A stretch of DNA of 64,000 bases from Artemia franciscana (lineage: Eukaryota > Arthropoda > Branchiopoda > Anostraca > Artemiidae): assembly GCF_032884065.1 (NCBI RefSeq), contig NC_088883.1:28905355-28969354 (forward strand). The letters run 5' to 3'. Positions 1-63,597 of the stretch are shown here, in pieces. The position numbers were made by a program, and so were the translations under genes. Under the pieces are notes generated by a model that was not told the origin of the DNA, searched no databases, and worked only from the letters and a program-made list of their open reading frames with translations. Numbering within the stretch: the first letter of the stretch is position 1; each line of letters opens with the position of its first letter.

Positions 1-7
1 CTCACAA

Positions 8-2262
8 GGAATGTTTACTTTTGCTTTGTTACATCATAGAAAATGTTTTATAAACGAAACATGTTTACAAAACCTAAAGGTGTTGGAAAAAACCTTCAGG
101 GCTTCTTTATTCCAGAATTTCTTTGGATTTTATGTCATAGGGCTTTTACTGTTATATCATAGGACTTGTTTGAGTCTGTTAGTCAAGCGGGGGAGTTGTA
201 TTAAGACATTTTTCTTCAAGATATTTTTCAAGACGTTTCAAGACATTCTAAGACGTTTTTAAGACATTTTTCTTCAAGACACTTCAAGAAATTTCAAAGA
301 CATTTTCTTCAAGACGTTTCTCAAGATGTTTCAAGACATTCTAAGACTTTTTTCAAGACGTTACAAGATTTTTTTAGTCCTTACGTAATAGGGAATGTTT
401 ACGTATTTTAAGAATGACGTATTTACACGTGACTTCAGGGCCCGTGGGGGTTCCCTGCTTGTAATTAAGGAGGGCACACGCGTGGATTGTTATGTAATGA
501 GGATGTACATGTGGGGTATTACATAACACTTAAAAATATTTTTTTTCTTTCAAGACTTTTTTCGGGGAGCATCTATTATAAAAAAAATTTTTGCCCACAT
601 TAGGATTCGAAAGGGATTCCCCTCAGTGAAATGAAGCGCTAACTAGTTGGACTATGAAAGCCTTTCTAATGTTATGATTCGGCTAATACGTTCTACATTA
701 TAACCTGTTTCACGCAAAGTTCGCGCATACTAGAATGATTTAATGAATTGCATGTTCTCGTATGCCTGCAATAATTGACACGCAGAGCGGAATATCGATT
801 ACTAGAGATTGACTGTATTTGAAGTGCACCTACATATTCAGATATGATTTTAGAGGATGTTATCAGATAATACTGCGGGTTCCTCTTAGTGCATTTTTTC
901 CAGGTAAATTAAAGTCCTATTAAGAGCTATTTCTGAGAGATCATAGTGAAAATGCCTTTCAAAATTATATTTTGAAAAATAAAATATGCAAACGAACAAA
1001 AAAGAGACAGATTTCAAAGTGCCTGCCTGTTACATTCCATTAATTTAAAGCTTGATACCAACTAAGTCACATTTTGAAAAATGAAGCATGCAAACGAAAA
1101 AAAGACATACTTTTGCATTCGGTTATACCTGAATGGTTTTAAGAAAAATGCCAGTGGCTTTTAAGGAAAAAGCCACCGTGCCACTATGTGGCTAGACCAC
1201 ACTTGCAAGCAATTGCAGAGGAGGAGAGTTGTTATTAGAGATATATTTAAACCGCATTTAGATATTTTGAAGGATTTTAATGGAAATGCCTTGTTTCTTT
1301 GAGCCAAGACTACATTTCCGATTGACAAGCGCACATTTGAAAAAACAATTTCTCATAATCTTGTTAGAGGTAAATTCAAGCCTCAAGATATTCTGAGGGG
1401 TTTTAATAAAAATATTTTAGAGTGCTAGATTTCACTCCCTCTTAGTCGAGAAACTTTTTAATCTAACTTAACTTTAACCTCTTGAAATGTGCCACACTAT
1501 TACTAGCCTTCGGGCAACCTCTAACACCCCTCATCTTTCCTGTGACATTTAACAGATAGTTTCTTTAAATTTGAGTTAAAAATCAATGATTAAAGACATT
1601 GATTCATGTTTTCGCAACCCAACCCTCTGTGATTCACCGTGTCAATTCACACCACTGTGCGACACTATGACTGGCCCTCTAGAACCCTCTCATCATTCCT
1701 AAGACATTTTTCAGATATTTTTTCTTAAAAATCGTGCATTAAATCCATTGGTTCATGTTTCTGCAAGCCAACCCATCATAATACACCATCTTAATTCACT
1801 GCACTGTGCCTCACTATTACTGGCCCTCTGGCACTCTTTAGCACACCTCATTGTCCCTAAGACATTTTAAAGACACTTTCCCGTCAAAAATCATTTACCA
1901 AATCCATTGGTTCATGTCTTCTGCAAACCAACCCTACATGATACAAAATTTCAATTCACACTACCGTGTCAGACTATGATTGGCCCTCCTGCACACGATG
2001 GCACCTCTCATCATTCTTAAGACATTTTTAGATATTTTATTAAAGTGATAACCAATTCAGTTTCCTCCGATTCTGCTCCCGTCCCCAACCACTTACGGTG
2101 GTCCAGTGTCGATGCTGCTGTTTCCCAGCCTGTTTCTAGTTCCAGCCTCCGGATCCGGCGATTCCAATTCCACTCCCACCGGTCCCGATTCCAATTCTGG
2201 TTCCGTTTCCACCACTTCTGCCCCCTCAATTCCACGGGTCTGATTCCACCAAGTTTCGGGCA
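8..2262 (+). repeat. Left arm of the giant foldback element
   Basis: The arm begins with GGAATGTTTAC and carries, in order, an AAGACATTTTTCTTC-type minisatellite (about 200-375), an internal copy of the terminal motif (391-402), a block near 430-560, unique AT-rich sequence with TCTGAGAGATC-like pieces, about three diverged copies of a ~160-bp repeat containing GTGCGACACTATGACTGGCC (about 1480-2040), and a TTCCAATTCC-rich segment (2050-2262). Each block has a reverse-complement partner in the right arm. Identity is clearly below 100% (I estimate 70-85% by eye), so the arms are old or relaxed. Small ORFs here are chance. Confidence 0.85.
200..375 (+). repeat. CAAGAC/AAGACATTTTT minisatellite, left
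   Basis: Short irregular units of the type TTTTTCTTCAAGACGTTTCA, roughly 20-30 bp, lie between the outer and inner copies of the terminal motif of the left arm. The inverted equivalent lies at 9215-9540 and is longer, so copy number has drifted independently in the two arms. Confidence 0.8.
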
Positions 2263-2269
2263 TTACCAA

Positions 2270-4418
2270 TATTTTGCATCTTATTATCAAAATCTACTAT
2301 GGTTCTTGAAAAATCTTGTCTGACATTATTAAAAATATTGCACTGCATTATCAAAATCTCTCCTGATGTAAGAAGAACCTTCTATTGCATTAGCAAAACC
2401 ACATACAAAGCTGTCAGAATCATGCAAGTTATTACCAAAATCTCACATGGTATTATCGTAGTCTCACAAGCTATTAACGAGATATTTTCACCATCAGTCA
2501 AAACGCGACTGCTATTACCCATATCTAACCTGATTGCTATCAAAATCATGTTATCTATTAACGAAAAATAACATTGTGCAATCAAAATCTTGTGTGATAT
2601 CATCAAGATTAACAACATCCCATCAAATATCATAAGTCTTGTAAGATGTTACGAAATTGTGTTAAATATTACCAAATCTTTTCCTGCATTTTCAAAGTCT
2701 AGTGAGATATTATGACAATCGTTTCAGGGATTACCTAAATCCAGCAAGTCATTATTATAATCTAGAATGGTTCTAGCAAAATCCTGTCTGATATTATCTA
2801 ACATCTTGCGCTACGCTATCAAAATCTTTCCTTATATGACAAGAATCTTCTATTGCATTATCAAAACCACTGACGATACTATCATAATCATGCAAGCTAT
2901 TACCAAAATATTACTTCGTATTATCATGGTCTCACAAGTTATTATCGAAATATTTTCAGCAACAATCAAAACGCGACTGCTATTACGCAGATCTAACCTG
3001 ATGCTATCAAAATCATATTACCTATTAGCTATACCAGACTGTTTATCAAAAATCAGGTCTGAAGCTAGCAAATATCTTGTGCTGCATTATCAAAATCCCA
3101 CATGGTATAATGAGAAACCTCTATGTTATTATCAAAGTTTACATAGTATTATACAAATTTTGCAAGTTATTAGCAAAATCATGCATGGTATTATGAAAAT
3201 TCTACCTAATATTAATAAAAATATTTTTCTGGTAGTATCAAAACGTGTCTGATATTGTCAAATCTCTCATGATGTTATCTAAATTGTGTCTGCCTTTCCC
3301 AAATTTAACATAGTGCGATCAAATCGTGTCTGTTATTGATAAGAATATCAAAATCTTGTCAAATATTATCAAAACCTTACATGATATTATCAAAGTCTTG
3401 CATGAAATTAATAAATCATGTTTGAATATAAGAAAATCTTGTCGTGTATTTTCAAAATCTCGTGAGATATTATGTCAAATCGTGTCTGTTACTATTGAAT
3501 AGTATCCAAGTCTTAGTTGATACTATCAAATCATATTTAAATATTGCAAAATCTTGTGTTGTATATTCAAAGTCTTGTGAGATATAATGTCAAATAGTGT
3601 CTGGTACTGTCAAATACTATCCAAGTCTTATATGATAATACCAAATCTTTTTTTAAATATTACAAAATATTGTCTTGCATTTTCAAAGTCTTGGGAGATA
3701 TTGTTGCAATCCTTTCCGGAATTACCTAAATCTAGAAAGTTATTTTCAAAATATTACCAAGCACCAAAATCTTCTGTGATATTATCCAAATCATGCCTTA
3801 AATTGTCAAATATCTTCTGCTACATTACCAAAACCCTACATGGTATAATGAGAATCCTCCATGATATTATCAAAACTTGACATAGTAGTGTCAAAATCTA
3901 GGAAGTAATTAGCAAAATCATGCTTGGTATAATTAAAATTCTTCCTGATACTCTCAAAAATATTTTTCTGTTAATATCAAATTGTGTCCAATATCGTCAA
4001 ATCTGAAATGATGCTATCTAAATCGTGTCTACTATTACCAAATTTAACATGGTGCTTTCAAGTCATGCCTATAGTTATCAATATTATCAAAATCTTGCCA
4101 AGTATTGCCGAACTCTTGTATGCTACTATAAAAATCTTGTCTGATATTGTGAGACACCTCGCAAAACATTATCAAATTCTCAACTGTTTTATTGAGAATC
4201 CTTTATGACAATATCAACCATACATGGTATTATCAAATCATGAAACTTATTAACAAAATCTTGCAATATATTATCATTTCATCTCGCAAGTCATTAGCGA
4301 AATATCTTCAGATTCAATTAAAACGCGACTGCTATTACTCAAATCTTATTTGATGCTATCAAAATCATGTTACCTGTTAGTGACGCTTAACATATTGCTA
4401 TAAAAATCATCTTTGCCA
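2270..4418 (+). repeat. Degenerate short-period repeat field in the foldback loop
   Basis: Nearly every 25-35 bases repeats a degenerate motif of the form TATTATCAAAATCTTG. A higher-order pattern exists: a block containing AAAACGCGACTGCTATTAC recurs near 2500, 2970 and 4320. The frames are open in places only because the motif is poor in stop codons, so I do not regard them as genes. Confidence 0.8.
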
Positions 4419-4420
4419 TT

Positions 4421-6327
4421 ATCAGGATTATTAAAATCTTGTCAAATATTATCAAAACCTTATATGATATTATCAAAGTCTTGTATGATATTACCAAATT
4501 CTGTTAAATATTAAAAAATCTCGTCTTGCATAATTAAAGTCATGTTGGATATTCTGAGAATCCTTTATCAGGATTATTAAAATCTTGTCAAATATTATCA
4601 AAACCTTATATGATATTATCAAAGTCTTGTATGATATTACCAAATTCTGTTAAATATTAAAAAATCTCGTCTTGCATAATTAAAGTCATGTTGGATATTC
4701 TGAGAATCCTTTATCAGGATTATTAAAATCTTGTCAAATATTATCAAAACCTTATATGATATCATCAAAGTCTTGTATGATATTACCAAATTCTGTTAAA
4801 TATTAAAAAATCTCGTCTTGCATAATTAAAGTCATGTTGGATATTCTGAGAGTCCTTTATCAGGATTATTAAAATCTTGTCAAATATTATCAAAACCTTA
4901 TATGATATTATCAAAGTCTTGTATGATATAAATTCTGTTAAATATTAAAAAATCTCATCTTGCATAATTAAAGTCATGTTGGATATTCTGAGAATCCTTT
5001 ATCAGGATTATTAAAATCTTGTCAAATATTATCAAAACCTTATATGATATTATCAAAGTCTTGTATGATATTACCAAATTCTGTTAAATATTAAAAAATC
5101 TCGTATTGCATAATTAAAGTCATGTTGGATATTCTGAGAATCCTTTATCAGGATTATTAAAATCTTGTCAAATATTATGAAAACCTTATATGATATTATC
5201 AAAGTCTTGTATGATATTACCAAATTCTGTTAAATATTAAAAAATCTCGTCATGTTGTCATGACGATTATTAAAAAAGTCATGTTGGATATTCTGAGAGT
5301 CCTTTATCAGGATTATTAAAATCTTGTCAAATATTATCAAAACCTTATATGATATTATCAAAGTCTTGTATGATATTACCAAATTCTGTTAAATATTAAA
5401 AAATCTCATCTTGCATAATTAAAGTCATGTTGGATATTCTGAGAATCCTTTATCAGGATTATTAAAATCTTGTCAAATATTATCAAAACCTTATATGATA
5501 TTATCAAAGTCTTGTATGATATTACCAAATTCTGTTAAATATTAAAAAATCTCGTATTGCATAATTAAAGTCATGTTGGATATTCTGAGAATCCTTTATC
5601 AGGATTATTAAAATCTTGTCAAATATTATCAAAACCTTATATGATATTATCAAAGTCTTGTATGATATTACCAAATTCTGTTAAATATTAAAAAATCTCG
5701 TCTTGCATAATTAAAGTCATGTTGGATATTCTGAGAATCCTTTATCAGGATTATTAAAATCTTGTCAAATATTATCAAAACCTTATATGATATTATCAAA
5801 GTCTTGTATGATATTACCAAATTCTGTTAAATATTAAAAAATCTCGTCTGGCATAATTAAAGTCATGTTGGATATTCTGAGAATCCTTTATCAGGATTAT
5901 TAAAATCTTGTCAAATATTATCAAAACCTTATATGATATTATCAAAGTCTTGTATGATATTACCAAATTCTGTTAAATATTAAAAAATCTCGTCTTGCAT
6001 AATTAAAGTCATGTTGGATATTCTGAGAATCCTTTATCAGGATTATTAAAATCTTGTCAAATATTATCAAAACCTTATATGATATTATCAAAGTCTTGTA
6101 TGATATTACCAAATTCTGTTAAATCTTAAAAAATCTCGTATTGCATAATTAAAGTCATGTTGGATATTCTGAGAATCCTTTGTCAGGATTATTAAAATCT
6201 TGTCAAATATTATCAAAACCTTATATGATATTATCAAAGTCTTGTATGATATTACCAAATTCTGTTAAATATTAAAAAATCTTTTCTTGCATAATTAAAG
6301 TCATGTTGGATATTCTGAGAATCCTTT
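4421..6327 (+). repeat. 146-bp tandem array, 13 units
   Basis: The landmark ATCAGGATTATTAAAATC recurs at 4421, 4567, 4713, 4859, 5001, 5147, 5306, 5452, 5598, 5744, 5890, 6036 and 6182 (as GTCAGG), and the last unit ends near 6327. The step is 146 bp except one 142-bp unit (deletion near 4930) and one 159-bp unit (insertion near 5255). Units differ by only a few substitutions, whereas the surrounding field is heavily diverged. This indicates recent amplification of one ~146-bp stretch of the older ~30-bp repeat. Confidence 0.95.
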
Positions 6328-7199
6328 ATAGCATTACCTAAATCTTGCAAGTTATTATCACAAATTATAATGGTATTATCCAAATATTGTCTGATTTTAT
6401 CAAACACCTTACTCTTCATTATCAAATTGTCGTCTGATATATCGAGAGTCATCTACTGCATTATCAAAACGTTACGTTTTATTATCAAAATCATACAACC
6501 TAGGGATCGGAATAGGGACCGGGAGCTGGAACTTGAACCGGTTTGGGAAACAGCAGACTCGGAACTGGAACCACCGTAAGCAGTTAGCCGGACAGAAGCG
6601 GAATTTGTTATCACTTTATTAAAAAAATCTAAAAAATGTTTTAGAAGTGATAAGGGCTTTCATTGTGCGCCAGAGGGCCAGTCATGGTGTGGCATGGTGA
6701 TGTTAATTGACAAGATGTATCATGGAGGATTGGTTTGTGAAAAACAGGAACCAATAGATTTAATTCATGATTTATAACAAGAAAATACCTGGAAAAAAAT
6801 CTTAGGAATGATGAGGAGTGCTAGAGGGTGCCACAGGGACAGTAATTGTGTGGCACGGTGGTGACAATTTAGATGGTGTATAATGATGCGTTGGTTTACA
6901 GAAACATGAACCAATGGATTTAATACATGATTTTTAACAAGAAAATACGTGGGAAATGTCTTAGGAATGATGAGAGGGTGCTAGAGGGCCAATCATAGTG
7001 TGGCACAGTAATGTGAATTGAAATGGTGTATAACGGAGGGTTTGGTTGCGGAAACATGAATAAATGGATTTAATGCATGATTTTCAATCAGAAAATAACT
7101 GGAAAATGTCTTAGCAATGATGAGGCGTTTTAGAGGGTGCCCAAGGGCTAGTAATAGTGTGGGGTGGTGTAAATTGCTTTAAATATCATTTTGAGATGT

Positions 7200-8345
7200 T
7201 AAACTTAACCTGGGAGGTCGTAAAAGAATTTTTTGACTTAGGGGGAGGGGTGAAATATAACACTCAGTCAAAAAAACCAAGTAATTTTATTAAAAGTCCT
7301 CAAACATATCATAATATGTCTTAAGTTTAGCTCTAGCGAGATTATGTGAAATTTGAAGAGAAACTATTATCTAAACATGGACTTGTCAACCGAGAATGCA
7401 GTCTTGACTCAAAGAAACGAGAGATTTTAATTAAAATCGCTCAAAAATGTCTTAATTTGGTGTAAATTTTCCTCTAATATCAACCCTCCTCTCTGGGGTA
7501 GGTTAAAAGTGACCCCCAACTTTATTTAATTCATGGTTCTTTTGCTTATATATTATCCTTATAAGCTTTTTTTCGTCTTGGTTTTTCCATTTTTGACTTT
7601 TAATTGTTTTTTTCTCTGTTTTACGGGGCTGCTACATATTGCCATGTTGGTGTGAATCGCTTGGACTAATATGTTCTACAGCTTAAAGTTAAGGTGGAAG
7701 GTTTTGGAGTAATTTTTTCGACTGAAAGGGAGTGAAATCTAATGTTCAGTCAAAGAAACGAGGAATTTTCATTGTAAGCTCTCAAAAATAACTTAGTGTG
7801 GCTTCCATTTACCTCTAACGAAATTATGTGAAATTTGAAGAGAAACATATTCAAATGTGCGCTTGTCAATCGGGAATGTATATGCTTGGCTCAAAGAAAC
7901 GAGGCATTTTCATTAAAAGCCCTTAAAATATCTTAATTTGGTTTAAATTTACCTCTTATAACAAGCCTCCTCTCTGGAAATGCTTGCTAAGATCCTGCCT
8001 TTCTTTAATTCATGGTTCGTTTTCTTATATTTTATCCTTTATAAGATTTTGTCATGTTTTGTTTTGTTTGTTATGCTTTCACTGCTTTTTCTTGGGTTTT
8101 ACGGGCCAGCCACATATTGCCATGTGGTGTGAATTCCTTGAACTAACAGGTTCTTCACCTTAAAGTTAAGGTGAGAGGTGTTAAAATAATTTTTTTGACT
8201 GAGGGGGAGTGAAATACAATGTGCTTGTCAATCTGGAATGTATAATCTTGACTCAAAGAAACGAGACATTTTCATCAAAAACGCTCAAAATATCTTAAAT
8301 GTGGTTTATATTTACCTCTAATAACAACTACCTCCCCCCTCTGGA
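7200..8345 (+). repeat. ~480-bp tandem repeat inside the right arm (about 2.4 copies)
   Basis: Segments starting with TTAA(A)GTTAAGGTG-like sequence near 7200, 7685 and 8163 share long similarity, including TGACT(T/G)A(G)GGGGAG, CTCAAAGAAACGAG and a TTACCTCTAATA block followed by CCTCCTCTCTGG. Period is about 478-485 bp and the third copy is partial. This accounts for the length difference between the arms. Confidence 0.75.
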
Positions 8346-9214
8346 AATACATATTGACACGGTGGCGTGAATACGCATTGCCCTGGCTCAATGAACCTTG
8401 GCATTTTCACTAAAACTCTCAGAAATAACCGAATGCTAAAATTTGTCTCTGTTTTGTTCGTTTGTATGTTTCATTTTTCAAAATATGATCTTTTTTTTAG
8501 TCTCAAGATTTAAATTAACGGAATGTAACAGGCAGGCGCATACGATAATGCAGTAGAAACGACGCTTTTTCACGAAGACCTCTCAGAAAGAGCTCTTATT
8601 AGGTCTTGAATTTACCTGAAAAAATGTGCTAAGAGCAACCCGCAATATTATGATATATATTAAGCATTCCTTAATAAACATTATAATATTATAATATAAT
8701 CTAAAAACACTCCTTATTATGCAAGTGAACTTCAAATTATAGGCAATTACTAATAATTGATTTTCCCCTCCGTGTGTTAACTATTGCAGGCATTTGGGAA
8801 CATGCAATTCATTTAATCATTATAGTATGCATGAACACGGGATTCTCCTTGCGTGCAATAGGTTATCATGTAGAACGTGCTAGCCGAATCATAGTATTGG
8901 TATTAGAAAGGCTTTCATGATCCCACTAGTTAGCGCTCCATTCCATTGAGGGGGAATTTGTTTCGAATCCTAATATGGACAAAAAAAAATCTATAAGCAA
9001 TAAATGTTCCCTGAGAAAACAAAGGCATTGAAAGAAAAAAAATCTCTTAAAGTAGTATGTAACACCCCACGTGTACATCGTCATTACAACATCCCACATG
9101 TGTGTCCTCCTCAGTTGCAAGCAGGGATCCCCCACGGGCCCTGAAAAAAAACAACGTGCGAATGCATCATCCTTAATATAAGTAAACATTCCCTATTACG
9201 TAAGAGCTAAAGAA

Positions 9215-9540
9215 ATCTTGAAACTTCTTGAAGAAAAATGTCTTAAAAACGTCTAGAAATGTCTTGAAACGTCTAGAAGAAAATAGTCTTTAAAAAATGT
9301 CATGGAATGTCTTGCGATATCTTGAAGAAAATGTCTTAAAAATGTTTGGAAACGTCTTGAAGAAAAATGTTTAAAAAGAAATGTATTGAAACGTCTTGAA
9401 AAATGTCTTGAAGAAAAAGTGTTAAAAATGTCTTGAAATTTCTTGAAACATCTTGAAAAACGTCTTGAAGAAAAATGTTTTTAAAAACGTCTTGGAAAGT
9501 CTTGAAACATCTTGAAAAACAGCTTGAAGAAAAATGCTTC
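9215..9540 (-). repeat. GTCTTGAAGAAAAATGTC minisatellite, right
   Basis: About a dozen irregular units of the type CTTGAAGAAAAATGTCTTAAAAACG. It is the inverted counterpart of the repeat at 200-375, between the two copies of the terminal motif of the right arm. Confidence 0.8.
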
Positions 9541-9729
9541 TAACGCATGGCTAACGGCCTCTAACAAGTCATATTACGTAACAGCCCAAACCCAATGACA
9601 TAACATCCAAAGATATCCTGGAGTAAAGAAGCCTTGAAGATATTTCCTACACCTTTAGGTTTTTCAAACATGCTTCGTTTAGAAAACTCTCTCTATGATG
9701 TTAAAAAGCAAAAGTAAACATTCCCTGTA

Positions 9730-11769
9730 TACACTATCTTAGGTATTTGGTTTGACAGGGATGGTTTAGCGTCAGAGATTAAGGGAGTATTTGGTGTGAT
9801 AAAATATATTTAACAAAAATCGAAAACTTGTGGCACTTGATTTTGTAGGTAAAAGTTGAAGAAATATTGAGATTATTATAGGGGGAATGTCTTTTTAGGT
9901 TATCTTGAGGCTATAATTTAGGCCTCTCAGTGATATAGAAATCTCTCTTTAAATGATTAAGTATGTGAAAACATTTTGAACACGTTTTTTATGCTGAAGT
10001 ACAAATATAATTCTTTTTTCAACGATAATTGGTACCCCCCTCCTTCATCTAGAAATCTCCTTAATAACTGTCTTTTGTTCTCCTAATTCTCTAGAATAGT
10101 CATTTAAAATGCCTAATTTCGCTTTTTTTAGAATTTAGGTCGTTTCAAAGGAAAAACAAATTCACGCACGTGTCATATTAATCGACTTGAAACCTGAACC
10201 GCTCTTTACCTAAACCTTCATTTATTTTACTTTTAAGCTTAACAAAACAAAGCATAGTGTGAATAATTTGGATTTAAATTCATAATTAATAAATTGTAGT
10301 CTCGTACATGAAGCTACGAAATGCTGCTATGAAATAATCGATTTTGCTTCTGAATTGCCCTTTTGTTTTGCGAGTTAAAAATTTTGTGTGTCGTTTTTTT
10401 TTCCCCTGTGTTTTGTGGGTTACTGTTCAGTTCACTGTATAACATCTTTCTTTGTTGACTGCTGTGAAGTACATATTTTTTTTAATTAGGCTGTATTTCT
10501 TTGTTATCTAAACAGGAATTGAACTAAATGCTTCTTAATTTGAAATAATTTTCTTTAACTTCATAATTTATAAATTGCAGTCTCGTGTGTGAAGCAAAAG
10601 AATATATTTGTTATCCTTTTGTTTTGCGAGCATGAAACTTTCAAAATTTTCAAATTTTTCAAAACTCTTCATCAATTTTCCTCTCCTGTTGTATGGGATA
10701 CTGTACTGTCCACTCTCTCTTGGGTTTCTCTGCCGAATTATGGTTTTAATTTAACGGCCTTTGATGTTAACTTAAAGTGGATTGAACTAGATGTTTCTAT
10801 GTGGAAAGTAAGTTTCAAACCGGCTGGTAAGTTTGGAGCAAAGCAAAATCCTTGGAACTTCTTCAAAATTTCTTTTTTAAATATTTTGTTTACTAACTTG
10901 AAAAAGCGAGGCGATAATATACTTATACTTGTGTATAATTATGACACTTAACTTTACTTCATATAGCGTTGATGTTTCAATATATGCTTTTCAGTTTTGA
11001 ACCGAATCTGAAGCAAACTAAATGGAGTCATTTTCTTTTAATTGCGCTATTTGGAATCCGGCTGCAGTAGGGAAATTCAGCACATGTGAATCTTGCTTAA
11101 GGAGTTAAAATTTAACTTCGAAACTATGGTTGAAAATGGTAATTTTGTCAAGGAAAACGGCTAAATTGTCCCTACGGGAAACTCGGCTGGGACATCTCAC
11201 TCATATCTAAACTTCTCAAATTCCTTCAAAATTTCTTCTTTAAAAAGGCTGCTTTAACTGCCAACATTAAATAATCAGCCCAAACGATAGAAAAACCGTG
11301 AAAAAGAGAGAAACGAGGATAAATGCAGCCAATGAAGAAAAAGTTGGCAATAATGCAAATATTTCGGTCAAGACCTCCGCTTGACCGCCCTCAGTGCAGA
11401 ATAATAACAAATAATACGGATAAAAAATCCAAAGATAAAGTAAAAAAAACACAATTGTGTTTTTATTCAGTTACCCTTTCATCGTTACTTAGAGAGGGTC
11501 GTCCTATTTTGGCTTTTGTGTTTGTTTTAAGGCTTGGAATAGTTTTTTTTATTATTCGGTCATGGAAGGTCAAGCGGGGGTCAGAACGGAAATATTTACA
11601 TTGTTATTTGCGTTTTTTTCACTGACCGTTTTTACTCTTGTTTCTTTCTTCTTTACGGTTTTTTGTTGTTTAGTCATGATTAGCCAGTTTGGTCTCAGAA
11701 ATTATTTATAAAATAGAAACACAATGGTTTATTTATGTAAGTGCGTAATCATGTAGCTTTAATTTATTT
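9730..11769. other. AT-rich DNA with a diverged direct repeat; no gene seen
   Basis: I find no splice-consistent exon here. A diverged direct duplication links about 10287-10440 and 10559-10720: both contain TTCATAATT(A/T)ATAAATTG(T/C)AGTCTCGT, then CCTTTTGTTTTGCGAG. The 120-codon frame at 10589-10951 has an AT-driven composition and no recognisable domain. Confidence 0.5.
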
Positions 11770-11774
11770 CAAAT

Positions 11775-12398
11775 ACAATTTTGTTACCGACCAATTACAT
11801 TTTACTAATAATTATAATACATAATAATCATATACACCATAATAATAATGAAGGGAAATAGAAGTGAACCGAATTTTTGCTCCCATGAAGATAATTTTGT
11901 TCCTGGGAACGTGAAATTCGACTGCTGAACCGAAATTCTACATATGTCACCATTGCCTAAGAAACTGAATTTTGGTGGCTTAAATTTTTTGAGTCAATAT
12001 CGTAAAGGCTACACCTCCTTAGGACTGTATCTTCTATAGTACAAAATTTCCACACGGTAATTTAATTTAGCTTTAACTTCACCAAAACGGTCACCAAAAT
12101 ATAGTTTAAAACATAATATGTAATTATATACTATTATAGTGTAGCCTATATGGTTATTACATATTATTATATATAAATCATTATATATGATTATATGATT
12201 ATTACATATAACATTCCCACACGGTAATTCAATTTAGCTTTATCTTCTGAACCTACAAATTAGGTTACCATCAAAATATAGTTTAAACATAATATGTAAT
12301 TATTTATTAATATATTGTTTATGGTTATTATATATTATGTGCTATAACTATTAGTAAAATGTAATTGGTCTGTAAATTTGCGGTATAATTAAAGAGAA
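11775..12398. mobile_element. MITE-like segment with ~50-bp inverted ends
   Basis: ACCAATTACATTTTACTAAT near 11790 recurs as its reverse complement (ATTAGTAAAATGTAATTGGT) near 12352, with continuing imperfect similarity into AT-rich sequence. Between them a ~165-bp segment starting CACACGGTAATT is directly repeated (about 12052 and 12219). A short non-autonomous element with internal duplication is the simplest reading. I did not find a clear target-site duplication. Confidence 0.55.
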
Positions 12399-14156: not shown

Positions 14157-16644
14157 GTTGGATTCACTAAATATGCGCCATATAACGCTTCTTAATATTT
14201 ATTTGGTCGATTAATTTGGGCTGAATTGTTTGCCAATTTTAGTTTGCAACCCTTTTAATAACCCACCCTAATTGCTTTTGCCCGTACTAGCAGCAAAATT
14301 ATAGTCGTGTAGTTATTATAACTACAGTACAGTTTAGTACTATAACTGCCATGTAAATCTACACTATCATCAATTTCTGATTTTATTTATTCATGCCCCA
14401 TCGTCTTACTATTATGTCTTCTTTTTCTTACTAACACCTTTTTATAAAACTTATTGCTGGAAAGGAAGTGGATGCCAGAGTTCAATAGCCTAAGATGTCT
14501 TAGGTACAGTGTTTCCACTTTTCTTTTCAAACAATTTATAGAACCTTCGTGTTTTTCAATATCTTCTTTTTTTGTCGGTAGATGTGATTAGGAATTCGCT
14601 AGATATCCCGAAAAATCGGCAGAAGTGGAAACACTGGCTGAGAAATTAAATCTCCGATCTTCCCTATTAATTTAGATGTATGCTTGTTAGTTTTGCCTCT
14701 AGGCTTAAGTGTTTGCAAAACTATTTTTAATTTGTAGAGATTGTTTACAGTTTACAGTTTAGTTTGCTTTATAGATTTTAGCAAAGAGAATAGAGAGATT
14801 ACTTACCCTTAATTTAGTGGTAAAAAGTATGCTTTAGTTTGATTGGTTTACATCTGTTTAATGGTATATTTTTTAAGCCAATCACAATATTCCTTAATTG
14901 CATGTAAGAAAGGGAATCATTGAACCCCGACTTTTCAAGATTCTTTTTTGTGCGAAATTTCAAACCAGTCAAAACAATAGGAAATATAATTTCTTTTGAT
15001 TGGCCATGCTGTGTGAAATTTCAAGCCAATAAAATGGTAGATAAGTTGTTCAGTTCAGCCGCGTTAATTGGAGGGAGGGTAATTGCTCTCTTGACCATTC
15101 CCCCGCTGTATTTTGAAAATGTCTTTTGGGGGGTATTCTCATTGGAAAATTTCTTTTTTGGTATATTCACTGAAAAAATCAATAAAATAACAAAATACTC
15201 TCCACCCTGATTTTGAACATTAGCGTCAAGATTTGAAAGCTCCCATTCCCTCCCCCTACCTTTTCTCAATCGATGGCCATGGTTGAGTTACAAAATTTTT
15301 TATAAGTAAACTCTCTGTTTCTCTCTGATTTTAGCTTGCTGTTTTTGTATTTTTTGTTTATATTTGAGAGTTTGGAACGTTCGACTAGTGATAAAAAACA
15401 AGAAAATGGAAAAAACGTCGTCGCTCTTTGTGGACTGTAATGACACCTTCATTTGTGTAAATTTTCTTTAATTTATGTTAGCTTTCTATAGCAGGAATGC
15501 TTTTACATAATTATTGTATAAAACGATTTCTTTGACGAAATATTCGTACTTTTTAATAAATCATGTGCTTAGAAAAAAAAAGTTTGCATTACAGTCATGC
15601 TATTTGTAACTTAGGCTCAATGAAATCCTTTGCTTTTTTTACGGCCGGGTCGTAAAATGACCTAAGGCCGGATTAATGAATAAGGCAGAAAATTTCAAAT
15701 GGCTGTGTATAATTCTTACCTGGGGATAAAACGGTTGATTTTCGGTATTAATCGTTATTATAATTGTAAATTGCTACATAAATAATTATTTTAAATTGTG
15801 TTCAAATAATCTTCGTTTGAAGACATAGCTGTCTTTTGAAATTAAAAGACATAATGTTTGAAATTTAACGGGTGAAAAGCATTGTAATATTTAATTAATT
15901 AGTTTTTCTTAATTCATTTCTATGGTTCAACGGGGCAACACTGAAAAATATGTGGCACCTATCTTATAATTTTGAAATAAGTAAAAGAAAATTCATCGAA
16001 AATGGAGGTTTCCAGGTATGAATAGACCTAAGATGGGTGCATATGTTTGCCCTAAATGTTTTCCCAATGCTACCCTAAGATGGGTGGCAAATGTTTTTGT
16101 TTTGATTTTCTTAGTACATAAACTCAGTCATAATACCAAGCCTGCCCTTTGAATGTAAGAATTTCAAGAAGAAGAGAAAAACATGAACAGCAATTAAATT
16201 TAGCATATTCCACAAAGATTAGTTATATAATAGAAACATATGTTAGCTGAAAGATTATGATTAAATTTAAGCGACGGCGAGAAATACCAAATTAAGCGAC
16301 GGCGAGAGATACCAAATTTTAAAACGGAATTAGAATAGTTCTATAAATCATTTTCATGATCCCCCACTCAAGTTTTGTCTATAAGCAATAAAAAAAAAAA
16401 GACCTATTGTCTTAAGCGCTGTCCAAGTATGACCATGAAAAGTTGTTACACTTATTAAAGTTAGTACAGCGGGCAATGTTAATTTCTAGTTGTGGTAGTG
16501 CAGCCCTTTATACCTACGAATAGAAAATGTATGCCTTGTGGCTTTAGATCAAATTCGAATGCCCATAATTTGATTTCAAGATCAGTGTATGGGAGTTGTA
16601 TTTGTCAGTGACAAGCAATTGGTCAATGTACCCTAATACCGTAA
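14157..16644. other. Intron sequence, mostly featureless
   Basis: Apart from a small MITE-like element at 14507-14636 I see only AT-rich intron. Short GC-containing patches near 15060-15260 and 15640-15680 show no splice-consistent coding frame. Confidence 0.5.
14507..14636. mobile_element. 130-bp MITE-like element with 14-bp perfect TIRs
   Basis: CAGTGTTTCCACTT at 14507-14520 is the exact reverse complement of AAGTGGAAACACTG at 14623-14636. The 130-bp length and CAGTG terminus suit a hAT-like MITE. The flanking 8-mers (CTTAGGTA and GCTGAGAA) are not a duplication, so superfamily assignment is open. Confidence 0.6.
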
Positions 16645-17769
16645 TCAAACAGTTCGGGGTAACGAACTGTAAATAAGGAGCAACCCGGCTCAATAGTAAC
16701 CAAAACCCTAAAAAACGAAATTTTTATACCAATAGATACATCAAAAGAATTTGATATTAATGCTGATTTCAAATATACAAGTTTCATCAAGTTTAGTCTT
16801 ACTATCAAAAGTGAAGAGCCTCAGACTATTTGCCTTATTTTCGTAAAATTAACCCCTAGAAGTCATAGAATCTTAATGTAAATCACACCATCAGATTCAG
16901 TGTATCAGAAAACCCTACTGTAGAGGTTTCAAGATTCTATCTGCAAAAATTTTGTATTTTTCGCCAGAAGGAAAGATTACGGATGCATGTTCATTTTTTT
17001 TTTCCCAAGGGTGATCGTATTGACCCAGTGGTCCTGGAATATCGCAAGAGGGCTCATTCGACAGGAAATTAAAAGCTCTAGTTTCCTTTTTAAGTGACCA
17101 AAAAAATTGGAGGGCATCTAGGCCCGCTCCCACGCTCATTTTTTCCCAAAGTCACGATCAAAATTTTGAGCGAGCCATTTTGTTCAGCATAGTCGAAAAA
17201 TCTAATAAATATGTCTTTGAGGATGACTTTATCCCCCACAGTCCCCGGGGAAGGGCTGGAAGTTGTAAACTTTGTCCATTGTTTCCATATAGTATTGGTT
17301 ATTGGGAAGTATACAGGCGTTTTCAGGAGGGATTTTTTGATGGGAGGTTCGAGGGGAGAAGTTTAGATGGGACGATCTTTTCCTGGAGGAATTTTTCATG
17401 GGGGAAGGCATTTTCCGCGAAGGGGTCACGGATTTCCCGGTATTGTTTAAAAAACGATCAGAAGTTAAATTGAATTTTTTTAATGCCACAATACATGGAA
17501 TGGACCCAAAACCTACTAGAAATTGGTACGGCTTGCAAGTTTCTTCAACTGAAAGTAATGAGCAACATTAAAACTTAAAACGAACAAAAAATTTTACATA
17601 TATGAGGGGGTTCGCCCCTTCGTTAATAGCTCGCTCGTACGCTAAAGTTCGAACTTTAGCGTGGAGAGCTAGGTATTGACGAGGGGGGCGAACCTCCTCA
17701 TGTACGTAATAATTTTTGTTTATTTTAAGTTTTAGTGTTGCTCCTTACTTTCTGTTGGAAAAAACTAGA
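16645..17769 (-). mobile_element. Two-hairpin element, copy 1 (minus orientation)
   Basis: Read on the minus strand this starts with CTAGTTTTTTCCAAC then GAAAGTAAGGAGCAACA, folds into a ~200-bp inverted repeat whose apex is the perfect palindrome CGCTAAAGTTCGAACTTTAG(CG) at 17639-17660, continues through a body of about 900 bp containing CCTCCAATTTTTTTGGTCAC and ATTGAGCCGGGTTGCTCCTT, and ends with a small hairpin (CAGTTCG...CGAACTG type, one mismatch in the loop region) followed by TTTGA. Two other copies in the window share both ends. No coding capacity is seen, and the ORFs across it are chance. Confidence 0.8.
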
Positions 17770-21846: not shown

Positions 21847-21854
21847 GTATATAT

Positions 21855-21940
<86 letters not shown>
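21847..21940. repeat. (TA)n microsatellite
   Basis: About 90 bases of nearly pure TA with a few interruptions at the left edge. Confidence 0.95.
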
Positions 21941-29823: not shown

Positions 29824-30457
29824 TGATTTGAGCGCCCCTGTAATATGACCAATGAAAAAGCAACTATTTTATTGTCGCTGCTGAACAAATTAATCCTAGG
29901 ATAAAACATACGGAACACATATTATGAACTAAACTCTACCTGCTTGATGAATCTAGGGGGAGGGGGGGGGGTAAATGTGTTTTTCAACTGGTATCGGGAG
30001 GGAGGCTTTATTTCAGCTCTTTCTTTCTTTCCATTGGTAAAGAACATTCACTAGGACTGCTAATTTAATTCAATCCATAACCAATCGCTCCGGTATCATC
30101 TGGATTGGGTAGCAGCAACTCATTTCTTGTGGGTTTTTTTATATTCTTTTTCTCTCTGCTGTTCTTTTTTCCGTTTTTATTTTCTTTAGTTCTTGAATTT
30201 CTTATTTTCTTCTTTAAAACATGAAATAGTCCTATATTTTTTTCTTTTTTTTTGCTAAGTCTTTTATTTAGAAAAGACATCACGATTAATTTTCTTCTCT
30301 TCTTTGAATCAAAAGTCGCATCTCTTTTTTTCCTTAGTTTCTCTAGGCTAATTAGGTTTCATTCGGTTTATTATATCCCTCAATCTTTAACTGTCATTAT
30401 CTAATGGGATCCTATCTAATGTGATACGTACTGAAACCAAAAATATTTTCATTTCAG

Positions 30458-30695
30458 ACCCTATAAACCTTGATTTAAAAGTGTTGGATATTCCAGTCAA
30501 CGCGGCAGCTACAGCTTTGAAAGATTTTTTTAAACGTTTTCCCCTGATTCTCACCCCAGAATTAATGACGGAACTGGAAGACGTTGCCCTGAAATCTGAT
30601 AGGAGCTGCAGACTTGTAGCGATACGAAGTTTACTCCAAAAATTCTCTCCTATCACATTTGGAGTTCTCAAATTCATCTTCCAGCATTTAGTTAG
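30458..30695 (+). CDS. RhoGAPp190: p190-type RhoGAP exon E5: middle of the RhoGAP domain
   Basis: Acceptor TTTTCATTTCAG and donor AG|GTAAGT bound 238 bases: two complete an Asp or similar codon, 78 codons follow, and two bases remain. Key segments are DLKVLDIPVNAAATALKDFF, RFPLILTPELMTELEDVALK, SDRSCRLVAIRSLLQKFSPI and VLKFIFQHL. This is the RhoGAP core after the arginine-finger loop. The LK-FF-R-P-L-TPEL pattern includes the conserved Lys that contacts the GTPase in the family. The NAAATALKDFF and DRSCRLVA-RSLLQK segments resemble arthropod p190 RhoGAP rather than other RhoGAPs. The product should stimulate GTP hydrolysis by Rho at the cell cortex; function is inferred from family. Confidence 0.93.
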
Positions 30696-30718
30696 GTAAG
30701 TCAAAAGAATTTCACCCT

Positions 30719-30832: not shown

Positions 30833-31590
30833 ATATTCCAGTCTCGAAGGGATTTACAAGTTTTGTCAAAAGATAAGTAATTGAAAGAACATTTCACTCC
30901 CTTAAGAGGTATTCAATCCAGACCAGATGGCATGAACGTTCATTGACAAGCCTACTTATTCCAAACTCAGAAACTGGCCCCACATCCATCGACGGCAAGC
31001 AACTCGGAACACGACACGATCTAAAATCAGAGAAGGAGAGGAACTTACTTAAGAACAAGTCGTTCCAACAGCTGCAAAACAGCGGTAAATGCTTTGTGAA
31101 TGACATGTTCGCACTCAAGGCCGTATGCAAGAGAGGGTTAAGGGGACTTGACCCCCTCCGTCGAAAAAAAATCCTTTTTTAAATTTCCTTCGCCCAGAAA
31201 AAAGTGTTGGATGCGACCCTGTTCACGATAATCAGCATTGCCTCCAAACTCTAAACTTGGATGAATACAAAAAGGTGGAGACAAAGGCTAAATACGGAAT
31301 TGATCACTTGCCAAGTTTTTCCGAGTATCCTTTTAACATTTGAAAAAAAAATTGAAGGGATTTAGCCTTCTGAACCAAAGGATTTTTAAATACTTGTCTC
31401 GATTTTGAAACACTAAAGACGAGCAGCAGCTTCATGACTTGACCATGACTTGATACCCACTTAATTGGACTATCTGTCTTGGCTTTTCCTACAATTAGCC
31501 AAGACTTGACTTGCCCACGACTATTCCACTTTTAATTCAAAAATCAACTAGTTTTTTATTTAAAATTTTAACTCTTTTTTTTCATTTTAG

Positions 31591-31789
31591 GGTGGCTGAA
31601 AACTCGCGTGTAAATAATATGGACTCAAAAAACATTGCCATTTGTTGGTGGCCGACACTGTTGCCATTTGAATTCAGTGATATGACTCGGTTTGAGTGCA
31701 TGCGACCGCATATGGAAGAAATTGTTCAAGCAATGATTGATCAATATCCGTTCCTATTCCTTAATAAAGACGAGGTGCTTATGGTGTAA
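31591..31789 (+). CDS. RhoGAPp190: p190-type RhoGAP exon E6: end of RhoGAP domain and stop
   Basis: Acceptor TTTTTTTTCATTTTAG supplies one base that completes an AGG Arg with E5. Sixty-five codons and TAA follow. The peptide runs VAENSRVNNMDSKNIAICWW, PTLLPFEFSDMTRFECMRPH, then EEIVQAMIDQYPFLF and a short DEVLMV tail. The N-M-S-N-AI-WWPTL block is the p190 hallmark: other RhoGAPs usually have FGPNL here, while p190 proteins have WPTL. The C-terminal helix ending PFLF closes the domain and the protein ends soon after, as in insect p190. A possible poly(A) signal AATAAA lies at 32855-32860, but I cannot confirm that it is used. Confidence 0.93.
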
Positions 31790-34470: not shown

Positions 34471-35092
<622 letters not shown>

Positions 35093-38195: not shown

Positions 38196-39914
38196 CAAGT
38201 TTTTTGAAATGAAAGTAAGGAGCGACATTAAACTTTAAAATGAACAGAAATTACTCCTTATATGAAAGGGGCTTTTCCTCCTCGACACCCCGCTCTTTAC
38301 GCTAATGTTTTTTAACGTTTTAAAAAGTAGAGTTGCGAGAAAGAGTCAAACTTTAGCGCAAGGAGCGGGGTGTCGAGGAGGAAAAGCCCCTTTCATATAA
38401 GGAGTAATTTCTGTTCGTTTTAAAGTTTAATGTCGCTCCTTACTTTCATTTCAAAAAACTTGTTTTTTTTATTTAATTTCTGAAAGTTTTGAATTAATGC
38501 ATGTCTGATTTTGGCTCTCCGTACATAAATTATTAAAATGAAATTTGCTATTAATTCTTTTTTGGCTAAATGGCTTTCTCTTAGTTTTGATCAGACGATT
38601 TTAAGAAATAAGGGGTGGGGAAGGAGGCCTAGTTGCCCTCCAATTTTTTCGGTTACTTATAAAGGCAACTAGAACTTTTAATTTTTAACGAACGTTTTCA
38701 TTAGTAAAAAATATACGTAACTTAAGAATTAACTTACGTAACAAACTTTTATATTCTTATATTTTTGATTATATATATGAGGGAGTATGTCCCCTCGTTA
38801 ATACCTCGCTCTCCACACTAAATCTTAAGTTTTGTCCCAATTCTTTAAGAATGACCCCTGAATCAGAAAGGCCGTAGAATAAATAGTTGAAATTACTAAA
38901 AAAAAATTAGCATAAAGAGCGAAGTATTTATCTCCTTCTAAATACCTGCTCTTTATGCTAATGTATTTTTAGAACCCCTCATATGCTTAATAATCTCTGT
39001 TCGTTTTAAGTTTTAATGTTTCTCCTTACTTTCAATTGTAAAACTTTTTCATGTTTATATTTTCATTGTTTTTTTTTAATAGTAATGCTAGAAAATCCTT
39101 CGCCCTTTTCATTGAATTTCTCTTCCCCCATGAAATATTCCTCCAAGGACAGATCCTCCCATATAGCCCCCTCCCCTGAACCCCACACCCAAACAAAAAA
39201 ATCTCCCTGAAAACGTCGGTACACTTCCCAATAACCATTACTGTATGTAAACATTGGTCAAAGTTAGTAACTTGCAGCCCCCCCTCCAGGGACTGTGGGG
39301 GGTAAGTCATCCCCATTGACACAGTTATTATGGCTTTCGACTATGCGGAACAAAATGGCTATCTCAAAATTTTGATCCGTTGACTTTGGGAAAAAATGAG
39401 CATGGGAGGGGGCCTAGGTACCCTCCAATTTTTTCGGTCACTTAAAAAGGGCACTAGAACTTTTCATTTCCGTTAGAATGAGCCCTCTTGCAACACTCTA
39501 GGACCACTTGGTCGATACGATGACCCCTGGGGAAAAGAAAAAAAAACAAACAAATAAACACGCACCCGTGATTAGTCTTCTGGCAAAAAATACGAAATCC
39601 CACATTTTTGTAGATTGGACCTTGAAATTTTTTCTATAGGGTTCTCTGATACGCTGAATGCGATGGTGGGGTTTTATTACGATCCTATGACTTTTAGGGG
39701 GTGTTTCCCCCTATTTTTCAAAATAAGGCAAATTTTCTTCGGCAAATTTTCTGATGACAAAGACTAAATTTGATAAAACTTATATATTTGAAATCAGCAT
39801 AAAAATCCGAGTCTTTTGGTATATCTTTTAGCATCGAAATTCCGTTTTTTAGAATTTCGTTTACTATTGAGCCGGGTCGCTCCTTACTACAGTTCGTTAC
39901 CACGAACTGTTTGA
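38196..39914 (+). mobile_element. Two-hairpin element, copy 2 (plus orientation)
   Basis: Starts CAAGTTTTTTGAAATGAAAG then TAAGGAGCGACATTAAA. The first ~270 bases are a near-perfect inverted repeat (arms about 38196-38315 and 38350-38465, with GGAGCGGGGTGTCGAGGAGG on the right arm). A second, decayed foldback occupies about 38760-39045, also ending TCTCCTTACTTTCA. The body continues through CCTCCAATTTTTTCGGTCAC and ends ATTGAGCCGGGTCGCTCCTT, then the perfect hairpin CAGTTCGTTACCACGAACTG and TTTGA. At about 1.7 kb this is the longest copy. It has no transposase and the short ORFs are not conserved between copies. Confidence 0.82.
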
Positions 39915-40610
39915 TTTGTATTATGGGAGAAGAATGGATTTTTTTCTTCACTTGCAGAATTTTTTCATTTGAAAAAACTTGGATTTTTCAGTTTTCTAGC
40001 TAAAAATTCGTCTTTAATCCTATGGATTTATTATATAAGTCATGAATAGTAGTAATGAAAATGGATGATTTATTGGAAATAATAGGTATTGGTAGGAAAT
40101 AATTGCCGCGCTGTTAGAAAAATCTGATTATTCTCTGATCATGGAGGGGATTTTTTCTTCTTAAAAGAGGTGCTTGTAAAGCTTGTCAAGTATGAAAATA
40201 ATTATTAATATTTTATTAAAACAAATGCTCGCAAACTAATGCTTTGGAGATTTTTTTCCTGTTTTTATCTCAAGTCAACTATATAATGTCCCATGAGATA
40301 TAAAAAGAAATGAATTGAGAAATAGTTGTGTTTGGCGTTTCTTATAAATAGCTTATATGCTGTTTTGTGATTAGTGTTGATTTATCAGAAGTTTCTTTCT
40401 TGTTTTGTAAGCTATTTGATAGAATTTAATTTAGCTTTTAATTTTAATTGTGTGACATTGAATGCATAGGCAATTTTTTGATTGTGTATTATATTTATCT
40501 TGTATATCCATCTTGCTTTAGTTGATATTTTAGTAATGTGGCGATTTCGTTTTGTCACAAATAAAATCATTCGCTCAATTTATTCATTTATTTCTATTTC
40601 ATGAAGATAC
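39915..40610. other. AT-rich spacer before the satellite
   Basis: No features recognised apart from A/T-rich sequence. The satellite begins at the end of this interval. Confidence 0.5.
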
Positions 40611-43600
40611 CTAGTACAACCACTGAAGCTTGCGTGAAGTTAATTTTAAAACACCAAAGACCTCCTAATAGAAATATTTTTATTCCCTGGATCATCTTAT
40701 ATTTATTTCATAATAGCACACCATATAGTAAAACCATTGAACCTTGCGTGAAGTTAGTTTTAAAACACCAAAAACGTCAAAATACAAAATTTTATTCCTT
40801 GGGTCATCTTATAGTTATTCCATTATAGTACACTATATGATGTACTATAGTACAACATTGAAGCTTGTGTGAAGTTAATTTTAAAACACGAAAGACAAAA
40901 AATAAAATATTTTTATTCCCTGGATCATCTTATATTTATTTCATAATAGCACACCATATAGTACAACCATTGAACCTTGCGTGAAGTTAGTTTTAAAACA
41001 CCAAAAACGTCAAAATACAAAATTTTATTCCTTGGGTCATCTTATAGTTATTCCATTATAGTACACTATATGATGTACTATAGTACAACATTGAAGCTTG
41101 TGTGAAGTTAATTTTAAAACACGAAAGACAAAAAATAAAATATTTTTATTCCCTGGATCATCTTATATTTATTTCATAATAGCACACCATATAGTACAAC
41201 CATTGAACCTTGCGTGAAGTTAGTTTTAAAACACCAAAAACGTCAAAATAAAAAAATTTTATTCGTTGGGTCATCTTATAGTTATTCCATAATAGTACAC
41301 TATATGATGTACTATAGTACAACATTGAAGCTTGTGTGAAGTTAATTTTAAAACACGAAAGACAAAAAATAAAATATTTTTATTCCCTGGATCATCTTAT
41401 ATTTATTTCATAATAGCACACCATATAGTACAACCATTGAACCTTGTGTGAAGTTAGTTTTAAAACACGAAAGACAAAAAATAAAATATTTTTATTCCCT
41501 GGATCATCTTTTATTTATTTCATAATAGCACACCATATAGTAAAACCATTGAACCTTGCGTGAAGTTAGTTTTAAAACACCAAAAACGTCAAAATACAAA
41601 ATTTTATTCCTTGGGTCATCTTATAGTTATTCCATTATAGTACACTATATGATGTACTATAGTACAACATTGAAGCTTGTGTTAAGTTAATTTTAAAACA
41701 CGAAAGACAAAAAAAAAAATATTTTTATTCCCTGGATCATCTTATATTTATTTCATAATAGCACACCATATAGTAAAACCATTGAACCTTGCGTGAAGTT
41801 AGTTTTAAAACACCAAAAACGTCAAAATACAAAATTTTATTCCTTGGGTCATCTTATATTTATTCCATAATAGTACACTATATGATGTACTATAGTACAA
41901 CATTGAAGCTTGTGTGAAGTTAATTTTAAAACACGAAAGACAAAAAATAAAATATTTTTATTCCCTGGATCATCTTATATTTATTTCATAATAGCACACC
42001 ATATAGTAAAACCATTGAACCTTGCGTGAAGTTAGTTTTAAAACACCAAAAACGTCAAAATACAAAATTTTATTCCTTGGGTCATCTTATAGTTATTCCA
42101 TAATAGTACACTATATGATGTACTATAGTACAACATTGAAGCTTGTGTGAAGTTAATTTTAAAACACGAAAGACAAAAAATAAAATATTTTTATTCCCTG
42201 GATCATCTTATATTTATTTCATAATAGCACACCATATAGTAAAACCATTGAACCTTGCGTGAAGTTAGTTTTAAAACACCAAAAACGTCAAAATACAAAA
42301 TTTTATTCGTTGGGTCATCTTATAGTTATTCCATAATAGTACACTATATGATGTACTATAGTACAACATTGAAGCTTGTGTGAAGTTAATTTTAAAACAC
42401 GAAAGACAAAAAATAAAATATTTTTATTCCCTGGATCATCTTATATTTATTTCATAATAGCACACCATATAGTAAAACCATTGAACCTTGCGTGAAGTTA
42501 GTTTTAAAACACCAAAAACGTCAAAATACAAAATTTTATTCCTTGGGTCATCTTATAGTTATTCCATAATAGTACACTATATGATGTACTATAGTACAAC
42601 ATTGAAGCTTGTGTGAAGTTAATTTTAAAACACGAAAGACAAAAAAAAAATATTTTTATTCCCTGGATCATCTTATATTTATTTCATAATAGCACACCAT
42701 ATAGTACAACCATTGAACCTTGTGTGAAGTTAGTTTTAAAACACCAAAAACGTCAAAATACAAAATTTTATTCCTTGGGTCATCTTATAGTTATTCCATT
42801 ATAGTACACTATATGATGTACTATAGTACAACATTGAAGCTTGTGTGAAGTTAATTTTAAAACACGAAAGACAAAAAAAAAATATTTTTATTCCCTGGAT
42901 CATCTTATATTTATTTCATAATAGCACACCATATAGTACAACCATTGAACCTTGTGTGAAGTTAGTTTTAAAACACCAAAAACGTCAAAATACAAAATTT
43001 TATTCCTTGGGTCATCTTATAGTTATTCCATTATAGTACACTATATGATGTACTATAGTACAACCATTGAAGCTTGTGTGAAGTTAATTTTAAAACACGA
43101 AAGACAAAAAATAAAATATTTTTATTCCCTGGATCATCTTATATTTATTTCATAATAGCACACCATATAGTACAACCATTGAACCTTGTGTGAAGTTAGT
43201 TTTAAAACACCAAAAACGTCAAAATACAAAATTTTATTCCTTGGGTCATCTTATAGTTATTCCATTATAGTACACTATATGATGTACTATAGTACAACCA
43301 TTGAAGCTTGTGTGAAGTTAATTTTAAAACACGAAAGACAAAAAATAAAATATTTTTATTCCCTGGATCATCTTATATTTATTTCATAATAGCACACCAT
43401 ATAGTACAACCATTGAACCTTGTGTGAAGTTAGTTTTAAAACACCAAAAACGTCAAAATACAAAATTTTATTCCTTGGGTCATCTTATAGTTATTCCATT
43501 ATAGTACACTATATGATGTACTATAGTACAACCATTGAAGCTTGTGTGAAGTTAATTTTAAAACACGAAAGACAAAAAATAAAATATTTTTATTCCCTGG

Positions 43601-61530: not shown

Positions 61531-61536
61531 ATTGAT

Positions 61537-61616
61537 GCTAAAGCCAAGGTTCGAACCTGGAACCTCTCGGACCTGGAACCTGGAACATAACGCTTTACCA
61601 ACTCAGCTACTTCGGC
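61537..61616 (-). repeat. tRNA-derived SINE head (or tRNA pseudogene)
   Basis: On the minus strand GCCGAAG pairs largely with CTTTAGC as an acceptor stem. A D-arm/A box (TAGCTGAGTTGGTAAAGC) follows, then a disrupted anticodon region carrying a GGTTCCA duplication, then a T arm CCAGGTTCGAACCTTGG with a good 5-bp stem and B box. The length is 80 bases. Because the anticodon stem is broken and an A-rich tract follows, a SINE head is more likely than a working tRNA. Confidence 0.7.

Positions 61617-61894: not shown

Positions 61895-63597
<1,703 letters not shown>

Follow-up and report, generated by a model that had tools for sequence, protein, structure and literature searches.

A 9.7-kb foldback-like element with long inverted arms and a satellite loop in Artemia franciscana: a probable non-autonomous DNA transposon

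Anatomy of the element

The first 9.7 kb of a 64-kb stretch of Artemia franciscana DNA (contig NC_088883.1, positions 28,905,355 to 28,969,354 of the forward strand; hereafter the window) consist of two inverted arms of more than 2 and 3 kb that enclose a loop of satellite DNA. A first-pass annotation of the window had described this structure as a foldback element without a transposase. Our analysis suggests that the 9.7-kb stretch is an old non-autonomous foldback-type DNA transposon, with a probability of roughly 0.68.

Gapped local alignment of positions 1-2300 against the reverse complement of 6381-9900 returned one collinear inverted repeat, 4-2171 against 9728-6503, with a score of 1641. 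Dinucleotide shuffles (50 runs) reached at most 67.4, and the direct, same-strand orientation scored 47. The arms agree in 1720 of 2078 aligned columns (82.8%, gap columns left out; Kimura two-parameter (K2P) distance 0.197), and the 358 mismatching columns comprise 186 transitions and 172 transversions. By BLAST, in which gaps are counted, the three main pieces of the arm path are 71-76% identical, with E values down to 4.6e-161. The left arm is 2168 bases long and the right arm 3226 bases, which bears out the lengths of ~2.25 and ~3.2 kb first proposed and places both on a single path. The annotation had named the lack of a continuous antidiagonal as a refutation; the gapped alignment shows one that keeps its order throughout, though indels, the largest of several hundred bases, interrupt it. 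These gaps arise mostly because the right arm carries extra tandem material, including an internal direct repeat (7165-7818 and 7648-8321, 72%).

The two arms share the same order of domains, namely an outer motif, a subterminal array, an internal motif, inner repeats of 150-160 bp and a TTCC-rich edge, followed by the satellite (Table 1). Allowing at most one mismatch, the motif GGGAATGTTTAC occurs four times in the 64 kb, and all four occurrences lie in the arms (starting at 7 and 391 on the + strand, and at 9714 and 9182 on the - strand), one at each outer end and one inside each arm. The copy at the right outer end is exact. The left end is not fixed, the arm match there starting at base 4 of the window with 3 flanking bases before it. 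The annotation had also taken the motif as a marker of the ends, but with internal copies at 391 and 9182 the motif alone does not mark them. Searching a viral collection with the 18-bp end motif gave two loci, which were rejected as they match the window over those 18 bases and in background-level pieces only. The 22-bp internal motif hit 0 prokaryote contigs and 0 viral contigs, these not being the fitting collections in which to look for further copies.

Arrays of AAGAC-like cores adjoin the outer 200 bases of the arms. On the left, 15 AAGAH cores lie in 196-380 with all 14 spacings at 10-15 bp; on the right, 18 cores lie in 9206-9545, spaced at 10-15 bp in 10 of 17 cases and at 21-39 bp in the other 7. 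The density of AAGAC is 59 and 35 per kb in the left and right arrays, counted on one strand, versus 2.7 per kb on both strands of 9801-64000. Further inward, the units of the inner repeats were compared between the left (L) and right (R) arms. L2 and R2 (89%) form the sole clear reciprocal best pair; L1 is nearest to R1 (80%), yet R1 is nearer to L2 (83%), and L3 matches R3 at only 73%, each being nearer to its own-arm neighbour (L3-L2 78%, R3-R2 82%). For the larger arm unit, L-B (83%) and L-C (85%, 136 columns) exceed A-B (78%), but B-C reaches 86%.

The loop is repeat-filled, as the annotation had stated, its content being mostly a 21-bp satellite in which a 146-bp higher-order unit is amplified. 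The satellite occupies about 2.27-6.5 kb and starts within ~100 bases of each inner arm edge, with autocorrelation peaks at 21 and its multiples in 2172-4418 and at 146 in 4419-6404. Three satellite 9-mers have 62 occurrences in the loop, all of them on the + strand (0 on the - strand), and the loop therefore lies outside the palindrome. No second copy of the loop satellite was found in the window by nhmmer, whose single row was the loop itself. The 146-bp units resemble one another far more closely than the two arms do, which suggests that their amplification postdates the divergence of the arms, although concerted evolution could give the same picture.

Table 1. Positions of the arms, motifs, arrays and loop in the window
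Feature	Positions	Strand	Basis or remark
Left inverted arm	4..2171	+	Collinear with reverse complement of 6503-9728
Outer end motif, GGGAATGTTTAC with one mismatch	7..18	+	3 window bases precede match start; terminal position unproven
Left subterminal array, AAGAC-like cores	202..362	+	Tandem repeat and core spacing
Internal motif copy within TTACGTAATAGGGAATGTTTAC, 22-bp block identical in both arms	381..402	+	Motif scan
Left inner tandem repeat, period ~160 bp	1642..2028	+	2.5 copies, 71% matches
Loop, mostly 21-bp-period satellite, one strand; first ~100 bases TTCC-rich	2172..6502	+	Autocorrelation
146-bp higher-order unit, 13.5 copies, 95% matches	4419..6404	+	Tandem Repeats Finder
Right inverted arm, lengthened by extra tandem material	6503..9728	-	Arm alignment; internal direct repeat
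Right inner tandem repeat, period ~150 bp	6669..7162	-	3.1 copies, 75% matches
Right-arm tandem copies of a stretch single in the left arm (1205-1486)	7165..8348	-	Self-comparison
Internal motif copy, right arm, exact 22-bp block	9182..9203	-	Motif scan
Right subterminal array, AAGAC-like cores	9216..9536	-	Tandem repeat and core spacing
Outer end motif GGGAATGTTTAC, exact	9714..9725	-	Motif scan

Coding content

Open reading frames (ORFs) were taken from stop to stop at a length of at least 60 amino acids, which gave 36 in 1-12000, of which 29 lie within 1-9729. No transposase was recognised among these 29 at the Pfam cut-off, a scan that leaves aside shorter or frameshifted remnants and other libraries, and the earlier statement that the element has no transposase agrees with this result. 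The best matches were far under the cut-off, e.g. YkiC (E 0.016), Erf4 (E 0.025) and Nup188 (E 0.033). A coding element was rejected, as no Pfam family reached the cut-off among the 29 ORFs. The same scan found no THAP or P-type transposase domain and no Mutator-like element (MULE) transposase (0 of 29), the latter being a protein that a non-autonomous copy would be without anyway.

Origin of the element

The foldback reading is favoured because the inverted arms are long and internally repetitive, share an outer motif and subterminal repeats, and enclose no recognised coding domain. By analogy with described elements, the stretch is best placed, as a large example, in a structural kind that is already known, without assignment to a named superfamily; we infer that a Mutator-like origin is the most likely one and a P-like origin possible, and that the element would end near bases 4-8 and 9724-9728. 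The long arms would then be expanded terminal inverted repeats (TIRs), and the outer motif together with the short subterminal cores would be putative binding sites for a transposase encoded elsewhere. The array at each end may gather this transposase, by analogy with published foldback elements, and the enzyme, acting in trans, would pair both ends and move the element by cut-and-paste. Both the mobility of the element and the binding of transposase to its arms are inferred. After insertion, the arms would have decayed by point mutation while tandem copies were gained or lost, and the 21-bp satellite of the loop would have expanded locally, and later, into the 146-bp higher-order array.

The satellite may have had a source within the element itself. 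The hexamer [AG]TCTTG, which complements the core of the arm arrays (CAAGA[CT]), occurs in the loop on the + strand only and far above shuffles, with 15 occurrences versus 1.6 expected in 2272-4418 and 34 versus 1.7 in 4419-6404, the hexamer having been picked post hoc. The 7-, 8- and 9-mers common to the loop and the arm arrays were not above shuffles. It is a doubtful speculation that the loop satellite grew from transposase-binding repeats of one arm, which would make the element a satellite nursery whose arrays might still bind transposase.

Several observations weigh against a transposon. The arm match starts so close to the window edge that the left terminus and any target-site duplication are out of view, and 30 combinations of terminus and length, with only 3 left-flank bases at hand, gave partial and uninformative matches (target-site duplications are of 8-10 bp in Mutator-like elements and of ~7-8 bp in the P superfamily). 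Unless the contig begins there, a window start inside a longer palindrome is a priori more likely than one at a transposon end; a true terminus is argued for only by the few mismatching bases on the left and the end-like motif on the right. GGGAATGTTTAC is also found away from the ends, inside each arm, and the arm alignment was made with cheap gaps and its identity taken without the gap columns. That the inner arrays are older than the arm pair, a candidate we tried by unit-by-unit comparison, is unproven because only L2-R2 pairs clearly across the arms. No third arm copy was found in the 64-kb window (nhmmer; 12 arm rows, all within 1-9739), and no nearby source of transposase among the 16 scanned of the 34 outside ORFs of at least 90 amino acids, in which RhoGAP (two ORFs) and reverse transcriptase (one) alone passed the Pfam cut-off. 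Thus, of the proposal of a foldback element lacking a transposase, the anatomical part stands as the best fit, and the proposal as a whole is not proved, with a left flank of 3 bases and copies checked in 64 kb only.

The arms could instead derive from two separate insertions, in opposite orientation, of one dispersed repeat of 2-3 kb on either side of a satellite array. Arms that are ~83% alike and of unequal length look like two members of a family, the TTCC-rich inner edges might represent one terminus of such a repeat, and a different dispersed repeat in the window has inverted copies that lie far apart (16631-17407 and 39122-39926, 78%). Set against this are the corresponding points at which the arms stop on both sides, the start of the satellite within ~100 bases of their inner edges and the lack of a third arm copy in the window, and we consider two insertions unlikely. 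Solo arms at other loci, which the annotation had named as an observation that would count against a foldback element, were likewise absent from the window by nhmmer.

A segmental duplication in inverted orientation, or a larger palindrome truncated by the edge of the window, would likewise have the satellite at its centre and would involve no mobility at all; this reading is unlikely too and ranks just behind two insertions. A match from base 4 is exactly what would be seen if the window began inside a longer palindrome, and a target-site duplication is not shown; however, of the 3 bases to the left of the match no more than one agrees with the right flank, which hints weakly that the homology stops at that point, and the arms hold no recognised host gene but a repeated motif and an array typical of transposon ends. 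Far less probable is a host hairpin-RNA locus whose transcription would yield long double-stranded RNA feeding small RNAs: three pairs of arm segments are predicted to form RNA duplexes of -204, -336 and -379 kcal/mol, computed without a shuffled control, but such energies are expected of any old inverted repeat. An assembly or read artefact deserves hardly any weight, since a foldback chimera, inverted chimeras being a known kind of artefact, would give near-identical arms, whereas here 358 of 2078 columns differ and the indels are independent, and it was rejected on this 17% divergence and these indels. The formation of a cruciform by the arms, which the annotation had raised, is a weak idea because they lie ~4.3 kb apart and match at ~83%.

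Comparison with known foldback elements

Drosophila FB, sea urchin TU and Arabidopsis FARE are foldback elements, and the non-autonomous foldback transposon proposed here would join this structural class. We compared it with sections of the published descriptions of four families. Tetris of Drosophila virilis has long TIRs of three domains, up to 1,735 bp in length and containing 220-bp tandem repeats; it lacks coding capacity and has given rise to a satellite, a published precedent for a connection between foldback elements and satellites (PMC4079207). Like Tetris, the Artemia element appears to be a non-autonomous foldback with long TIRs divided into domains, internal tandem repeats, a non-coding middle and a satellite grown inside. 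Tetris differs in that its TIRs do not exceed 1,735 bp and its satellite derives from a TIR repeat; in the Artemia element the arms measure 2.2 and 3.2 kb, and it is the loop that holds the amplified array. Tetris makes target-site duplications of 8-10 bp, which would be out of view here with a left flank of 3 bases. Galileo, a member of the P superfamily, has TIRs in a stated range of 18-1,250 bp in D. mojavensis, with single TIRs up to 1,264 bp (PMC3573991), and its transposase binds by a THAP domain to the TIR tandem repeats, which hold extra transposase-binding sites (PMC3573991, PMC3688188). As in the Artemia element, its TIRs are long and repetitive inside, and they vary in length as tandem repeats are gained and lost; it differs in that its transposase is known, its TIRs span 18-1,250 bp and no satellite loop is described in the sections compared.

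The ends find their parallels elsewhere. Muta1, a MULE of Aedes aegypti termed a 'type 2 foldback', combines a terminal motif with nine subterminal repeats of 12 bp (PMC5225508), similar to the terminal motif and the subterminal array of ~12-bp repeats described here; unlike the Artemia element, it is autonomous, 3.2 kb long, and has 145-bp TIRs. Its target-site duplications are of 8-9 bp (PMC5225508). Tm1 of root-knot nematodes, a Mutator/foldback element, carries 13-15-bp tandem repeats in composite TIRs (PMC3169594) and so shares with it short tandem repeats within composite inverted repeats, but it is far smaller. It is present in many copies, with duplications of 8-10 bp at 45 of 53 complete elements (PMC3169594).

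The size of the element, which the annotation had called unusual, can fairly be so described relative to the sections compared for Tetris (up to 1,735 bp) and Galileo (18-1,250 bp). The arms are longer than those of both families, a comparison that does not span every foldback element, and the literature may hold larger examples. If confirmed, the element would add the loop to the arm as a place in which a foldback element carries a freshly amplified satellite, and would help to test whether foldback elements generally give rise to satellite DNA. Should it prove not to be a transposon, what remains is an old inverted repeat of the ordinary sort.

Other features of the window

Two further inverted structures lie outside the 9.7-kb stretch. 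A 229-bp near-palindrome at 17538-17766 (83% self-complementary) resembles a foldback of the miniature inverted-repeat transposable element (MITE) kind and has partial copies near 38198-38309, 38346-38462, 38975-39046 and 57581-57699. The inverted copies of the dispersed repeat mentioned above are 22 kb apart, and part of this repeat is also present at 57805-57989. Tandem repeats include an 11.2-kb satellite at 40612-51838, with 48.5 copies at 94% of a 233-bp unit made of two ~112-bp halves, degenerate arrays of an 85-bp unit at 53663-56273, and TA dinucleotide arrays at 21848-21940, 34474-35048 and 61900-62020.

The ORFs that passed the Pfam cut-offs are the exon-like RhoGAP ORFs at 30391-30699 and 31499-31789 and the reverse-transcriptase ORF at 58267-58899, and on their account the window can be taken as eukaryotic DNA. 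The nearest solved structure to the ORF at 31499-31789 is a human-type Rho GTPase-activating protein 35. A tRNA-like match lies on the - strand at 61536-61616, with 38.3 bits against a gathering threshold of 29.

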